This document shows positions 14,715-22,007 of a stretch of DNA of 56,897 nucleotides, one piece after another (positions within the stretch are counted from its first letter, which is position 1; each line of letters opens with the position of its first letter). A program made the position numbers and the translations under genes. Source of the DNA: Candidatus Omnitrophota bacterium (GTDB taxonomy: Bacteria > Omnitrophota > Gorgyraeia > Zapsychrales > Fredricksoniimonadaceae). Location of the stretch: NCBI GenBank assembly GCA_030650275.1, contig JAUSEK010000025.1:1-56897 (forward strand), in the 5' to 3' direction. The notes below the pieces were generated by a model. That model searched no databases. It was not told the DNA's origin and saw only the letters and a program-made list of their open reading frames with translations.

Positions 14715-14981
14715 ATGACAAGACATCGTTGCTTATTCGTTCTGGCGGTATTTGTATTGGCTGTTTCCGGTTGCGCGCAAAATCAGACAAGGGTGGGCGA
14801 AGGGGCCGCCATCGGAGGCGTGCTTGGCGCGGCCGCCGGAGAGATCATTGGCCATCAGAACCGCCACGATCTCACGGGTGTTTTGGTGGGAGGCGCTCTG
14901 GGCGCGGCGGCCGGAGCGGCCGTAGGCGCGCAGATCGAAAAACCCGCCTCCGAAACTCAAAATAAGATAGAAAATGAATGA
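14715..14981 (+). CDS. Glycine-zipper lipoprotein
   Basis: 88 aa. A signal peptide ends in a lipobox VSGC (cysteine 20). The mature part has two glycine-zipper stretches, GGVLGAAAGEIIG and GGALGAAAGAAVGA, like the YMGG/OmpA-associated Gly-zipper families that insert in or cross the outer membrane. GAGGAGAA precedes the ATG. Overlaps the following GNAT gene by 8 nt. Confidence 0.8.
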   Translation: MTRHRCLFVLAVFVLAVSGCAQNQTRVGEGAAIGGVLGAAAGEIIGHQNRHDLTGVLVGGALGAAAGAAVGAQIEKPASETQNKIENE

Positions 14982-15624
14982 TATCGTTGTCCGCCCGTTT
15001 GAACCCGGCGACCGGCAGGCCATCCGTGATATTTGCTGTGATGGCGCCGACCAGGGGAAACCCGTTGATGGTCTTTTTCCGGACAGGGAAGTGGCCGCGG
15101 ACATTTTGACCGGCTATTACACGGACCATGAACCGGGGTCCACGTTTGTCGCTCAGGTGGCCGGGGCCGTGGTCGGTTACGTGAACGGGTGTTTTGACAA
15201 TCGCCGTTACGGGCTGGTCATGTTCTGGATCATCGTGCCTTGTGCTTTGTGGAAAGCCGTTGCGCACAAGACAGTTTTTAAAAAAGAGTTTTGGACCATA
15301 ATCAACAGCATGGCCCGCAACGGGCATCGGCTTTTGCTCTGGCGTAAACAGTCCTTTCATAGCCATGAGGGACATATGCATATCAGCGTGGTCCGGGCCG
15401 GCCGCGGTCAAGGGGTGGGGGCGCGTTTGGTCCAGGCCCTTTTGGCGGCCGCGCAAGCGCGCGGCGTTGAGCAGATCACGGTGTCAGTGCACAGCGTCAA
15501 TATTGCGGCACGCGGTTTTTTCGAACATTTGGGTTTTGCTTTGGAAAAAAGTTATCCTATGGTCATGGCCCGTGAGGGGCGCATGGAACGCCATGAATCC
15601 CTTTATTATGTTAAACATTTATAG
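14974..15624 (+). CDS. GNAT family N-acetyltransferase
   Basis: 216 aa. C-terminal GNAT core with the acetyl-CoA loop RAGRGQGVGARL (motif A) and NIAARGFFEHLGFALEK (motif B). The N-terminal part begins VRPFEPGDRQAIRDI, typical of the family; a middle insertion of about 50 residues is hydrophobic and basic. The substrate is not predictable. Overlaps genes on both sides (8 and 17 nt). Confidence 0.85.
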   Translation: MNDIVVRPFEPGDRQAIRDICCDGADQGKPVDGLFPDREVAADILTGYYTDHEPGSTFVAQVAGAVVGYVNGCFDNRRYGLVMFWIIVPCALWKAVAHKTVFKKEFWTIINSMARNGHRLLLWRKQSFHSHEGHMHISVVRAGRGQGVGARLVQALLAAAQARGVEQITVSVHSVNIAARGFFEHLGFALEKSYPMVMAREGRMERHESLYYVKHL

Positions 15625-16993
15625 GGCATCCCCTTTTGTCTTCATTGTTTTTACGGCCATGACGTTATCTGCGGCATTGGCCGCGGACGCGCCACCCATT
15701 GCGTCGCTGGACCTTTCTCCTAAGGATAGAATTCTTGTTCTGGCACCCCATCCCGACGACGAGGTGTTGGGCGCCGGCGGCGTCATTCAAAGGTCCCTCG
15801 CCATGGGACTGCCTGTCAAGGTCGTGTTTTTTACCTACGGGGACAGCAATCAATGGTCGTTTTTATTGTACCGCAAACATCCGGTGTTCATGCCCGGCGC
15901 GGTGCGCAAGATGGGCCTGATCCGCCGTGACGAGGCGGTATCTGCGTCGGGGATTTTGGGATTAGGTCCCGGACAGTTGACGTTTTTGGGTTATCCGGAC
16001 TTCGGGACCATGAACATCTGGTTTTCCCATTGGGGGAGCCGGCCGCCGTTTCGTTCTTTCATGACCCGTGTTAATGCCGTTCCTTATCAGGGGGCTTTCA
16101 GGCCCGGCGCTCCTTATAAAGGAGAAGAGATCGTGGCGGATCTCCGTTCAATCCTCCGCCAGTTCAAACCGACCAAGATATTCATTTCCCATCCGGCGGA
16201 CCATAACGGCGACCATTTGTCCCTTTATCTTTATACGCGGGTGGCTTTATGGGACGAGAAAATGGACAGCCATACAGAGCTCTTTCCGTATTTGGTCCAC
16301 TATATCGGCTGGCCAAAGCCCAAGGGATTTGTGCCCAACGATCAGGACCCGCCCGAGACATTAAGAAGTTCCGTTCTTTGGACCGAGCACCGTTTGACGC
16401 CTCAAGAATTTGCGGCCAAAAAACGCGCCCTGCAGGCGCACCGGTCGCAATATACGTCCAGCCCCAAATACCTCCTGTCTTTCGTCAAGAACAATGAATT
16501 GTTCGGTGATTTTCCATCCGTTCGTTTGCATGTCAACGAGGATTCATCGGTGTTTTCCGGCCAACGCAGGACCATCTTAGCGGCGGAATTACCCGAGGAG
16601 TTCAACAGTCAGGAAAAAACAGCGTTCATCGGCGTCGAGTGGAAGTTCGTCCGCTGGGAAGGCGATGACCTGATCATTTCGATCCAGTTGTCCAAACCCC
16701 TGGCGCAGGACGTTGAAGCGTCGGTGTACATTTTTGGCTACAGCCCCGCCACGCCGTTTAGCCAAATGCCCAAGATCAGCGTCCGGCTGGGGAGTTTAAG
16801 TTACACGGTGTATGACCAGAACAAGCGCATCGCCCAGGATTCCATCAGCGTCAAACGCACGCCCGGCGACGTCACCATTGCCGTGCCGCTCAAACTTTTG
16901 GGCACCCCCGACCGCATCCTCACCAGCGCGCGCACGTATCTGGGCAACGTGCCTCTGGACAGCGCGTCATGGGTGTCGGTGGAATTATATTAA
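15608..16993 (+). CDS. Secreted PIG-L/LmbE deacetylase
   Basis: 461 aa. A signal peptide (residues 1-26, ending ALA-ADA) is followed by a PIG-L domain with the zinc motif PHPDDE (H48, D50, D51) and SHPADHNGDH further on. The last 150 or so residues form an extra beta-rich domain without a family I recognise. PIG-L enzymes remove acetyl groups from N-acetylglucosamine-type sugars; here the target would be periplasmic or extracellular. ATG 15608 was chosen because it opens the signal peptide; the frame continues upstream inside the GNAT gene but without a sensible start. Confidence 0.85.
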   Translation: MLNIYRASPFVFIVFTAMTLSAALAADAPPIASLDLSPKDRILVLAPHPDDEVLGAGGVIQRSLAMGLPVKVVFFTYGDSNQWSFLLYRKHPVFMPGAVRKMGLIRRDEAVSASGILGLGPGQLTFLGYPDFGTMNIWFSHWGSRPPFRSFMTRVNAVPYQGAFRPGAPYKGEEIVADLRSILRQFKPTKIFISHPADHNGDHLSLYLYTRVALWDEKMDSHTELFPYLVHYIGWPKPKGFVPNDQDPPETLRSSVLWTEHRLTPQEFAAKKRALQAHRSQYTSSPKYLLSFVKNNELFGDFPSVRLHVNEDSSVFSGQRRTILAAELPEEFNSQEKTAFIGVEWKFVRWEGDDLIISIQLSKPLAQDVEASVYIFGYSPATPFSQMPKISVRLGSLSYTVYDQNKRIAQDSISVKRTPGDVTIAVPLKLLGTPDRILTSARTYLGNVPLDSASWVSVELY

Positions 16994-18946
16994 ATGGATA
17001 TCACGCACGCGATCATTTTGGCGGTCATTGAAGGCATCACGGAATATCTGCCTATTTCTTCGACGGGGCATATGATCGCGGCGTCCCATTTGATGGGAAT
17101 GCCCCAGACCGAGTTCCTCAAGACCTTTGAGATCGCCATCCAATTAGGGGCCATCGCGGCGGTGGCAGGCCTTTATTGGCGCGTGTTCCTGCTGGACTGG
17201 GAGATCACTGCCAGGGTCGCCTGCGCGTTCGTTCCGACGGCCATTGTCGGTTTTCTGTTGTACGCAATGATCAAGAAATTTTTACTGGGCAATTATCTGG
17301 TTGTGGTCTGGGCTTTGTTCGCGGGGGGCGTTGTGCTCATTGTTTTCGAGCGTTTTTACCGTTTTAAAGGAGAGCCCGTCAAACGTTTGCAGGATATTTC
17401 CTGCGCGCAGGCCTTATGGATCGGGTTTTGTCAGTCCCTGGCCGTCATCCCCGGGGTTTCGCGTTCAGCCGCCACCATTGTCGGCGGTTTGGCCGCGGGC
17501 GTTGAGCGCGCCGTCATTGTAGAATTCTCATTTTTGCTGGCCGTTCCCACCATGCTGGCGGCCACGATCCTGGACCTGCTCAAGACCGAGGCCGTCCTGG
17601 ACGCGCAAGAATGGGGGATACTGGCCGTGGGCTTTGGCGTTGCTTTTATGGTTGCGTGGTTTGCGGTGAAATTCTTCCTGCAGTATGTCCGCCAACATGA
17701 CCTCGTTGCCTTCGGGATCTACCGTGTTGTTGCCGCCGTCCTTTTGCTTCTTTTCCTGAGCGGGACAACGGCGCATGCGTCCGAGGCCTTGACCCTCAAA
17801 GACTGCTATCAATTAGCGCTCAAACGCAGTGAATCATTGGCCATTCACCAGCAGCAGATCAAGGAAGCTGAAGGACGTTTCCTGCAGTCCTTGAGCGGCG
17901 CCTTACCCAAGGTCTCGTTCAATTATTCCGATAAATACACTGATGGGGATCAGGCCCCCGAAGCGAAGTTCACCTTCAGCCAGCCGCTGTTCTCTGGCTT
18001 CAAGGAATTCGCGGCCATGGCCGGTTCCAAAGCCGAAGAACGCCAGCGCCGGCAGGAGGAGATCCGCGCCCGCCAATTGCTGTTCACGGACGTGGCCGAT
18101 GCCTTCTACTATTATGATCTGTATCAGGAGCAGTTGAGGTCCACCCAAAGCATTGTGCAGGCCCTCTTTGATCGCATGGCGGAATTGCAAAAGCGGGTGG
18201 ACCTGGGCCGTTCGCGCGCCAGCGAATTGGCCAGCGCCGAGTCGCGCCTGCGCAAGGCCGAGGCCGACGTTGAGCAGACAAAGTCCGACATGACCGTAGC
18301 GCGCGAATTGCTGGAATTCCTGACCGGCACAACGCTGGAAGCCGTCCAGGATGAGGCCGGCCCTGTTTTTACCTTGAAAACCGGACAGGAATTGGCAGAC
18401 CATGCCGGGCACCGGCCGGATGTGACCGCGGCCCGGGAAGCCATGACCGTGGCTGACAGGAAGGTCGCGGTCGCCCGCGCGGGTTTCTGGCCCACGGTCG
18501 GCCTGGACGGAAATTATTATACGAAAAAGATCATTGAATCATCCTCGGATTGGGACGTCACTTTGAAGGTGGCTGTTCCTTTGTTCCAGGGCGGGGACAA
18601 TGCGGGCAAACTCAAAGAGGCCTCTGCTTTGTCCGAGGAAGCAAAATTGACCTTCAGCGAAACAGAGCGCCGTGCCCTGCTGGATATTCGTCAGGCCTAC
18701 AGCCGGTGGGAGGCCTCCGTCCGTCGTGATGAGGCCCTGAAAAAAGCGCTTGATGCCGCGGACAGGAATTATCAATTGCAGGCCGCCGACTACCGCAATA
18801 ATCTCGTCAATAATTTGGACGTTCTGCAGGCATTGGCAGACCTGGAAGACGTGCGCCGCGACGCCATCAGCGCGGCCACGGACGTCCGGCGCTTCTATTG
18901 GCAGTTTAAGGTCAAAACCGGGGATATCAGCCATGACGCTCTCTGA
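16994..18946 (+). CDS. Undecaprenyl-diphosphatase fused to a TolC-family protein
   Basis: 650 aa in a single uninterrupted frame. Residues 1 to about 255 are a complete UppP/BacA: ITEYLPISSTGH (15-26) and IPGVSRSAATI (about 151-161) are its two catalytic motifs, with the usual set of membrane helices ending FGIYRVVAAVLLLLFL. Directly after comes SGTTAHA-SEALTL, a good signal peptidase I site (cut after residue 262), and residues 263-650 are an outer-membrane efflux protein with two alpha-helical OEP repeats. The last UppP helix, with a basic YR before it, could therefore be the signal peptide of the TolC part. There is no stop and no internal start with a ribosome site between the halves. The end overlaps the RND gene by 14 nt. 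Each half is confidently identified; the processing is inference. Confidence 0.9.
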   Translation: MDITHAIILAVIEGITEYLPISSTGHMIAASHLMGMPQTEFLKTFEIAIQLGAIAAVAGLYWRVFLLDWEITARVACAFVPTAIVGFLLYAMIKKFLLGNYLVVVWALFAGGVVLIVFERFYRFKGEPVKRLQDISCAQALWIGFCQSLAVIPGVSRSAATIVGGLAAGVERAVIVEFSFLLAVPTMLAATILDLLKTEAVLDAQEWGILAVGFGVAFMVAWFAVKFFLQYVRQHDLVAFGIYRVVAAVLLLLFLSGTTAHASEALTLKDCYQLALKRSESLAIHQQQIKEAEGRFLQSLSGALPKVSFNYSDKYTDGDQAPEAKFTFSQPLFSGFKEFAAMAGSKAEERQRRQEEIRARQLLFTDVADAFYYYDLYQEQLRSTQSIVQALFDRMAELQKRVDLGRSRASELASAESRLRKAEADVEQTKSDMTVARELLEFLTGTTLEAVQDEAGPVFTLKTGQELADHAGHRPDVTAAREAMTVADRKVAVARAGFWPTVGLDGNYYTKKIIESSSDWDVTLKVAVPLFQGGDNAGKLKEASALSEEAKLTFSETERRALLDIRQAYSRWEASVRRDEALKKALDAADRNYQLQAADYRNNLVNNLDVLQALADLEDVRRDAISAATDVRRFYWQFKVKTGDISHDAL

Positions 18947-21900
18947 TCTGTCCATCAAGCGTCCGGTGTTCGCCTGGATGTTCATGGCCGCCCTCATCGT
19001 GTTCGGGGCGATCGGGTTTAAGGGCATGGGCGTGAGCCAATTGCCCGACGTGGAATTCCCGGTCATTTCCGTGAATCTCACCTGGCAGGGCGCGGCACCC
19101 GAGGTCATGGAGTCCAATGTCGTGGACATCATTGAACAATCGTTGACCTCCATCGAGGGGGTCCGCGACATTTCTTCCTCCGTCCGCCAGGGGCGGGCCA
19201 CCGTCACCGTTGAACTGGAATTGGACCGCAATGTGGACGTGGCTGTCCAGGAAGTGCAGACAAAAATATCCCAGGTCCAGAGGTCTTTGCCCAAAGACAT
19301 TGACCCGCCCACCGTGACCAAGGTCAACCCGGCCCAGCAGCCCATCATCTGGCTGACCCTGCACGGGGAAGGGCACGCCCCGCGGGAACTCATGAAATAC
19401 GTCCAGGACCATTTGCAGGACCAGTTTGCCACCATCAGCGGCGTGGGGGAAGTTACGCTGGGCGGGTTCGTGGCGCCCAATTTGCGCGTGTGGCTGGACG
19501 CGGACAAAATGACCGCCAATGAATTGACTGTCGACGATGTGGTCGCCGCCATCACCCGGGAACATTCCGAAATACCGGCCGGCCGCATTGAGACGCCGAC
19601 CATGGAACAGAACGTGCGCGCCATGGGCGAGGCCGGCACGGCGGAAGAATTCGCCGATATTGTCATCCCCAAAAGGAGCGGCCAGCCGATCTACAAACCC
19701 ATTTATCTCAAAGATGTGGCCGCGGTTGAGGACGGGCTGGACGATGTCCGGCGCATTTCCCGCAGCAACGGGGCCTCCGCCATAGGGCTCGGCATCCGCA
19801 AACAGACCGGCGCCAATGAAGTCGCGGTGAGCAAAGGGGTTTTCAAGAAACTGGAACAGGTCCGCAAACAATTGCCGAAAGGCATGGAACTCGACGCTGT
19901 CATCAACCGCACCAAGTTCATTGAGGATTCCATCAATGAACTGATGTTCACCCTCGTGCTTTCGGCCATCGTGACGTCCCTGGTCTGCTGGCTGTTTTTG
20001 GGGTCGTGGACCGCCACCGTCAATATTTTAATGGCTATTCCGACGTCCATCATAGGGACGTTCATCGTCATCCATTTCCTTGGTTTTACCCTCAACACGT
20101 TCACGGTCTTAGGGTTGTCGCTGGCCATCGGTATCGTGGTGGACGACGCGATCATGGTGCTGGAGAACATCGTCCGCTACCAGGAAAAAGGCGTGCCCCG
20201 TTTGGCGGCGGCCCAGCAGGGGGCCAGGCAGGTCACCTTCGCGGCCACGGCCGCGACCGCGGCCATCATCGCGATCTTTTTGCCCGTGGCGTTCATGTCC
20301 GGCATCATTGGAAAATTTTTCTATCAGTTCGGAGTGACCATTTCCGTGGCAGTCGCCCTGTCTTTGCTGGAAGCGCTGATGCTCACTCCCATGCGCTGTT
20401 CGCAATTCCTGCAGGCGGGGACGCGCTCGACGGCGTTCGGCAGGGCCGTGGACCGCCTGTTCCATCAAATGGCGAAGCATTACCGCGTCGGACTGCATTG
20501 GGTGCTGGGGCGCCGCTGGCCGGTGGTGGCGGTGTCTTTGGGGGTTTTCCTTTTGTCCCTGGTCTTTGTCGGATTTTTACGCAAGGAATTCGTCCCGGCG
20601 CAGGACCAGAGCATGTTCTTGTGCAGTTTGCAGACACCGGTGGGCTCTTCCATGGATTATACAAATGAGCGTTTTAAGGAAGCCGAGAAATTCGTCATGA
20701 GCCGCCCGGAGGTCGCGCGTTATTTCGCGGCCATCGGCGGTTTTCAGGGCGGTGAGGTCAACAAAGGCATGATCTTTGTGACCTTCAAGTCCCCGCGCCA
20801 GCGTCCCGTGGTAGTACCGGGCAAACATCCTTTGTCGCAGGCGGAATTGATGGTCCTGTTCCGCAAGGAACTCAACAAGGTCCCGCATGTGAAGGCGTTC
20901 ATCCAGGATCTGTCCTTGAGCGGTTTTTCCGCCAAGCGCGGGCTTCCCATTGAAATGTCCATCCAGGGCCCGGATTGGGACCAATTGTGGCAGCATGCCC
21001 AAGGGATCAAGGAGCGGATGGCCCAAAGCGGCCTGATGGTGGACGTGGATACCGATTATCTGGCCGGGGCCTCCGAGATCCGTGTCATCCCGGACCGCGC
21101 CAAAGCCGCCGCCCACGGGGTGAGCATTGAATCCATCAACGCGACCGTCAACGCGCTCATCGGCGGGGACCGGGTGGCCCAGTACACGCATAACGGCAAA
21201 CGCTACGACGTGCGTGTGCGCCTGATCGCGCAGCAAAGAGCGGCGGCCAACGACATCACTCAATTATGGGTGTGGAATGATCGCGGGGAACTGGTGCAGT
21301 TAAAAGACGTGGTGACACTTGAAGAAAAACCCGCGGCCGTCAACATCACCCGCCGCAACAGGGAGAGGGCCATCACCATTTTTGCCAACGTGGCGCCGGG
21401 CAAGTCTCAATCCACGGCCGCGGCCGAGGCCCAAAAGATCGCCAAGGCCGTTCTTCCCGATGGGTATACGGCTGTTTTCACCGGCAGCAGCAAGACGTCC
21501 CAGGAAAGCGGAGGGGGCCTGGCGTTCGTCTTTATCATGGGGATCGTGGTGGCCTATATGGTTTTGGCCTCGCAGTTCAACAGTTATGTCCATCCGTTGA
21601 GCGTTTTGATGGCGCTTCCGTTTTCCATTTCCGGGGCCCTGATCGCCTTATGGATGGGCGGGCAGTCCCTGAACCTTTACAGTTTGATCGGCCTCATTCT
21701 TTTGATGGGGATCGTTAAAAAGAATTCCATATTGCTGGTGGATTTTACCAATCAGATGCGCGAAAAAGGCCTTGAGGTCCGCGAGGCCTTGCTGGAGGCC
21801 TGTCCCGTGCGTCTGCGTCCCATTTTAATGACCTCCGCCGCGACCATTGCCGCGGCCATCCCGCCGGCATTGGCCATAGGCCCCGGTGTCGAAGTCCGCG

Positions 21901-22007
21901 TCCCCATGGCGATCGCGGTCATCGGCGGCGTTATTGTTTCAACTTTTTTCACCCTGTTCGTCGTGCCGTGCGTGTATAGCCTTTTGGCAAAACTGGAACA
22001 TAAATAA
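18933..22007 (+). CDS. RND efflux pump, HAE1/AcrB type
   Basis: 1024 aa inner-membrane proton-driven exporter. It starts MTLSDLSIKRPVFAWMF, the usual N-terminus, and has two sets of six helices with two large periplasmic loops. The proton-relay pair D404-D405 lies in GIVVDDAIMVLENIVRY. A second helix block contains LIGLILLMGIVKKNSILLVD. The ATG at 18933 overlaps the UppP-TolC gene by 14 nt. No periplasmic adaptor (membrane fusion protein) gene is found beside it, though such pumps normally need one. Substrate unknown. Confidence 0.94.
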   Translation: MTLSDLSIKRPVFAWMFMAALIVFGAIGFKGMGVSQLPDVEFPVISVNLTWQGAAPEVMESNVVDIIEQSLTSIEGVRDISSSVRQGRATVTVELELDRNVDVAVQEVQTKISQVQRSLPKDIDPPTVTKVNPAQQPIIWLTLHGEGHAPRELMKYVQDHLQDQFATISGVGEVTLGGFVAPNLRVWLDADKMTANELTVDDVVAAITREHSEIPAGRIETPTMEQNVRAMGEAGTAEEFADIVIPKRSGQPIYKPIYLKDVAAVEDGLDDVRRISRSNGASAIGLGIRKQTGANEVAVSKGVFKKLEQVRKQLPKGMELDAVINRTKFIEDSINELMFTLVLSAIVTSLVCWLFLGSWTATVNILMAIPTSIIGTFIVIHFLGFTLNTFTVLGLSLAIGIVVDDAIMVLENIVRYQEKGVPRLAAAQQGARQVTFAATAATAAIIAIFLPVAFMSGIIGKFFYQFGVTISVAVALSLLEALMLTPMRCSQFLQAGTRSTAFGRAVDRLFHQMAKHYRVGLHWVLGRRWPVVAVSLGVFLLSLVFVGFLRKEFVPAQDQSMFLCSLQTPVGSSMDYTNERFKEAEKFVMSRPEVARYFAAIGGFQGGEVNKGMIFVTFKSPRQRPVVVPGKHPLSQAELMVLFRKELNKVPHVKAFIQDLSLSGFSAKRGLPIEMSIQGPDWDQLWQHAQGIKERMAQSGLMVDVDTDYLAGASEIRVIPDRAKAAAHGVSIESINATVNALIGGDRVAQYTHNGKRYDVRVRLIAQQRAAANDITQLWVWNDRGELVQLKDVVTLEEKPAAVNITRRNRERAITIFANVAPGKSQSTAAAEAQKIAKAVLPDGYTAVFTGSSKTSQESGGGLAFVFIMGIVVAYMVLASQFNSYVHPLSVLMALPFSISGALIALWMGGQSLNLYSLIGLILLMGIVKKNSILLVDFTNQMREKGLEVREALLEACPVRLRPILMTSAATIAAAIPPALAIGPGVEVRVPMAIAVIGGVIVSTFFTLFVVPCVYSLLAKLEHK

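Follow-up and report, generated by a model that had tools for sequence, protein, structure and literature searches.

The window (the whole stretch of DNA analysed, 56,897 nucleotides from an uncultured Omnitrophota bacterium, which constitutes the entire contig) was found to contain an unbroken open reading frame (ORF) of 650 codons, extending from an ATG to a TGA (positions 16994-18946), in which an undecaprenyl-pyrophosphate phosphatase (UppP) is joined to a TolC-family outer-membrane factor. The ORF was confirmed as real, and its translation matches both the BacA and the OEP models of Pfam, in line with the first-pass annotation of this DNA, which had described a single 650-residue product comprising UppP and TolC. 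It is probable that this product is a single precursor, split by signal peptidase I after residue A262; we infer the cleavage, the localisation of the products and the order of events in evolution. The features of this region are:

14974-15624, forward strand: GNAT-type acetyltransferase-like gene, first gene of a conserved cluster (named from inspection of its sequence only)
15593-16993, forward strand: PIG-L-type deacetylase gene (Pfam PF02585), start codon uncertain (the longest ORF begins at 15365)
16994-17764, forward strand: UppP (BacA, undecaprenyl-pyrophosphate phosphatase) half, residues 1-257 (Pfam PF02673, superposition on 5OON, motifs)
17705-17779, forward strand: last UppP helix and signal-peptide-like c-region, residues 238-262 (R244, VVAAVLLLLFLSG, TTAHA; model and rule scan)
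17777-17782, forward strand: predicted signal peptidase I cut, A262/S263 (A-x-A rule scan)
17780-18946, forward strand: TolC-family outer-membrane factor half, residues 263-650 (Pfam PF02321, Foldseek)
18944-18946, forward strand: stop codon (TGA) of the UppP-TolC ORF
18933-22007, forward strand: RND inner-membrane transporter gene (ACR_tran; Pfam PF00873, 1e-284)

A codon-usage score, trained on the other genes of the window, is positive in the frame of the UppP-TolC ORF and negative in the other two frames throughout positions 17500-18040, with no dip in the signal at the join of the two halves. The stop codon of the PIG-L deacetylase gene abuts the ATG of UppP, and the RND gene shares its first 14 nt with the end of the TolC frame, stop codon included. 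An overlap of the GNAT and PIG-L reading frames is located near positions 15593-15624. Homologs of the GNAT gene also adjoin the PIG-L gene in the genomes designated G005, G014, G020, G023, G030 and G041, and it is possible that the GNAT-PIG-L-UppP cluster has a function related to lipid-linked glycans. The RND pump gene has no adjacent adaptor gene in the window, and the single adaptor model searched in the genome carrying the window (G000), HlyD_D23 (PF16576), gave no match.

Residues 6-249 of the fusion match Pfam BacA/UppP (PF02673; 7e-68, above the cut-off), and the score against the NCBIfam model TIGR00753 is a narrow miss (215.7 bits, with the cut-off at 217.5). Alignment revealed the conserved UppP motifs EGITEYLPISSTGH and PGVSRSAAT, and superposition on 5OON (Foldseek) gave a TMt of 0.85, an rmsd of 2.0 and 40% identity. 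Since related UppPs have lengths of 255-260 aa and end a few residues past the FG[IV]YR... helix, the UppP half is complete (to about residue 257). On the basis of the domain, both motifs and the full length, residues 1-257 belong to the UppP/BacA family. This half is the only BacA match in G000 (1.63 Mb, 96% complete; the missing 4% could conceal another copy of UppP or TolC). No PAP2-type phosphatase was found in this genome, using a search whose control was positive in 11 of 14 genomes. The UppP half is thus probably the only undecaprenyl-pyrophosphate phosphatase of a known type encoded by G000. As a sole copy with no PAP2 counterpart it should be under selection, which speaks against gene decay.

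The TolC half matches Pfam OEP (PF02321) in two stretches (4e-48), and Foldseek matched it to the TolC/OprM/CusC family, including 1EK9. With two OEP repeats and the TolC fold it is a member of the TolC/OMF (OEP) family, and it is the only OEP protein detected in a search of G000. Members of this family usually carry an N-terminal signal peptide of their own, which is not strictly a defining trait. The TolC half lacks a start combined with such a peptide of its own, and possesses an internal signal-like segment instead: it opens in a signal-peptide c-region (TTAHA^SEALTL, with the predicted cut marked by ^), and its mature end, SEALTLKDCY, aligns with the mature N-termini of related TolCs.

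Two crystal structure studies of E. coli UppP place both the N- and the C-terminus in the periplasm, in agreement with the positive-inside rule (PMC5861054, PMC5852022). With a periplasmic C-terminus, the last helix runs from the cytoplasm to the periplasm, which is the orientation of a signal peptide. This helix contains a positive residue (R244) and a hydrophobic core (VVAAVLLLLFL), followed by SGTTAHA^SEA; the first-pass annotation had placed the helix and the AHA-SEA site (A262/S263) correctly. A rule scan, requiring a positive residue, a hydrophobic core and A-x-A, detected a single signal-peptidase-like site along the whole fusion, at 260/262 (AHA^SEA, cut at 262/263). In 13 plain UppPs the same scan, which is crude and missed several genuine-looking TolC signal peptides, gave one hit, which is internal; their C-terminal ends had none. 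An AlphaFold model (44-row alignment, mean pLDDT 82) has a helix at residues 238-259 and low confidence or disorder at 257-263. G000 carries one gene for signal peptidase I. Cutting after A262 would yield a UppP of 262 residues (255-260 in relatives) and a normal mature TolC. Both the topology and the cut site of the precursor are predictions; with the orientation taken from the E. coli structures, the putative signal-peptidase site between the halves lies on the periplasmic side.

The polyprotein reading proposed in the first-pass annotation is the best of the explanations that we weighed. The single frame, the two complete domains, the topology and the single plausible signal-peptidase site all speak for it, and the cleavage itself is the step that we infer. 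According to this model, (i) UppP and TolC would be translated as one precursor of 650 residues, (ii) the UppP part would insert co-translationally into the inner membrane, (iii) the last UppP helix, ending on the periplasmic side, would double as the TolC signal peptide, (iv) signal peptidase I would cut after A262, leaving a UppP of normal length in the inner membrane, and (v) the mature TolC would be released to the outer membrane, where it would serve the RND pump encoded directly downstream.

A search for further fusions revealed no other case of UppP and TolC in one frame, either among 81 Omnitrophota genomes of the same order or in a 384-genome sample of the phylum; a contig scan for a second UppP-TolC fusion, whose reach was confined to close relatives, also gave none. 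The first-pass annotation had regarded two separate genes in related genomes as grounds for rejecting the fusion. The genes are indeed separate in every other genome examined, which shows the fusion to be lineage-specific and does not in itself make it false. In the sole congeneric genome, G001 (contig JACPXN010000002.1; Omnitrophota, groundwater), the contig ends 31 codons short of the TolC end, and UppP gave no match. UppP and TolC are adjacent in G036, with overlapping stop and start codons (ATGA), UppP adjoins TolC in G032, and in G044 UppP is located directly upstream of a single frame that encodes a MarR regulator followed by TolC (MarR~TolC). Long frames preceding TolC in G306, G352, G365, G138, G317, G210, G325, G167 and G248 were rejected as out-of-frame translation, the separate TolC of these genomes having, on our reading, its own ATG. 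The open-access literature yielded neither a UppP-TolC nor a MarR-TolC fusion; the first-pass annotation had stated that it knew of no described UppP-TolC polyprotein.

The occurrence of UppP-TolC in a single metagenome-assembled genome, with no second genome carrying it, might indicate that a misassembly, or a stop codon or indel missing from the metagenome consensus, has joined two genes. The sister contig (that of the congener G001) breaks within TolC, and there is a precedent for such an artefact in G174, where an apparent TolC-RND fusion (L115, a frame of 1525 aa) is due to a scaffold gap (XXXX). We nevertheless consider this origin unlikely, although assembly error and the evidence from a single genome are the main sources of the doubt that is left. 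The join coincides with the natural UppP end and falls within the signal peptide of TolC, it retains the frame, the signal-peptidase site and the coding signal, and G036 and G044 show parallels to the gene order found here. Such a combination of properties would seldom result from a random join.

It is improbable that TolC is produced mainly from an internal start within the UppP gene, giving two overlapping products. Candidate in-frame starts do exist, at ATG 17648 (M219) and TTG 17744 (L251), and the separate genes of G036, with their ATGA overlap, are a point in favour of this reading. However, neither codon is preceded by an apparent Shine-Dalgarno-like sequence, and a start at M219 would result in an unusually long signal, while one at TTG-251 would leave a signal of 11-12 residues without a positive charge. 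Moreover, as UppP has no stop codon, every UppP would carry TolC even if an internal start were used. There is also little likelihood that the precursor stays uncut, with the N-terminus of the channel tethered to the inner membrane: the topology would permit this and the join is a flexible linker in the AlphaFold model, but the linker is short, the last helix is closely followed by a good AxA site, G000 encodes signal peptidase I, and a TolC must, by its architecture, reach the outer membrane.

The preferred reading, a precursor cut after A262, draws support from the MarR~TolC genes. These were identified in seven genomes of the order, representing three families (G005, G014, G020, G023, G040, G044 and G079), as open frames of 561-583 aa, whose TolC is orthologous to that of G000. 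Among the 81 genomes, all close orthologs of this MarR (7/7) are fused to TolC. An eighth case, G187, belongs to another family and has a more distant MarR; its fusion is probably independent. The single frames of the eight Omnitrophota genomes are at loci L003, L005, L006, L007, L021, L023, L054 and L095, and all eight aligned members match both MarR and OEP of Pfam. Elsewhere among the Omnitrophota, the two genes often lie side by side but separate. No ATG, GTG or TTG occurs in the MarR~TolC gene of G023 between MarR residue 101 and the TolC core, so that its TolC can hardly start alone, and there is little alternative to a polyprotein whose signal peptide is internal; the other MarR~TolC genes do have in-frame start codons in this interval.

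Among the seven MarR~TolC genes found within the order, six have a palindrome, TAGTTAA-N5-TTAACTA, ahead of the start (e.g. L005:2252-2270, L006:899-917 and L007:1011-1029), and the seventh, that of G079, has a variant of it. The palindrome is mostly located beside promoter-like boxes and resembles an operator of the autoregulatory type. No exact copy of it occurs in the window, and the single MarR query used gave no match in G000 (the same query matched in 39 of the 81 genomes).

In a TolC tree, G000 is sister to G040 and G079, both of which have MarR~TolC (support 100/100), and in a UppP tree it groups with its own family and G078. The order GNAT-PIGL-UppP is found in the window, G005 and G030, and in G023 as far as the contig end; the order GNAT-PIGL-MarR~TolC occurs in G014 and G020, and UppP-MarR~TolC in G044. 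These gene orders suggest an ancestral arrangement GNAT-PIGL-UppP-MarR-TolC-RND, from which MarR and its operator were lost in G000. Most likely, the fusion arose by such a loss: a start-less TolC, formerly read through from the upstream MarR, would have lost MarR and the operator and landed directly behind UppP. This is a likely route rather than a demonstrated one. G000 TolC is sister to, and not nested in, the MarR~TolC proteins, which leaves a MarR-fused ancestor unproven, and the gene behind UppP in G005 and G008 is permease-like instead of TolC, so rearrangement besides deletion may be needed.

We tentatively propose that the TolC serving this RND pump may, within the Omnitrophota, have repeatedly lost its own start and become the exported C-terminal part of a polyprotein, and that in the lineage of the window the start-less channel was captured by UppP. 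If this is true, one regulator would stay bound to the membrane for every channel exported from a gene with MarR upstream, which would couple export to the regulation of the operon, and in the lineage of the window the supply of the channel would be tied to an essential cell-wall enzyme. With the MarR~TolC relatives, the fusion becomes part of a short series in evolution (separate genes, MarR~TolC, UppP~TolC). These relatives also point to a testable means of tying the supply of a regulator to the export of a channel.

Polyproteins that are split by signal peptidase are, to our knowledge, rare in bacteria. UppP-TolC would be one with functionally unrelated products, destined for different membranes. 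In E. coli, UppP and TolC are encoded by separate genes; the UppP half matches UppP/BacA of this bacterium (5OON, 6CB2), and the TolC half its TolC (1EK9), by sequence or fold. The MarR~TolC genes of Omnitrophota share with UppP-TolC the same TolC ortholog, the RND gene behind it and the lack of a stop ahead of TolC, and differ in the upstream partner, which is a cytoplasmic DNA-binding regulator rather than a membrane enzyme. The closest precedent in kind for two proteins from one translation event is the FbcH polyprotein (cytochrome b/c1) of Bradyrhizobium japonicum (Thony-Meyer, James and Hennecke 1991, PNAS 88:5001; reference 57 of PMC6976685). The cleavage of FbcH has reportedly been shown; for UppP-TolC the cleavage is predicted. 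As in FbcH, one frame encodes two complete proteins, a polytopic inner-membrane protein followed by a protein that, judging by its TolC family, would be exported, with an internal signal peptide, a predicted one in UppP-TolC, separating them. The products of FbcH share one inner-membrane complex, whereas UppP and TolC are unrelated and would reside in two membranes. UppP-TolC would also differ from FbcH in that the final helix of the first protein, here an enzyme, would itself be the signal peptide of the second.
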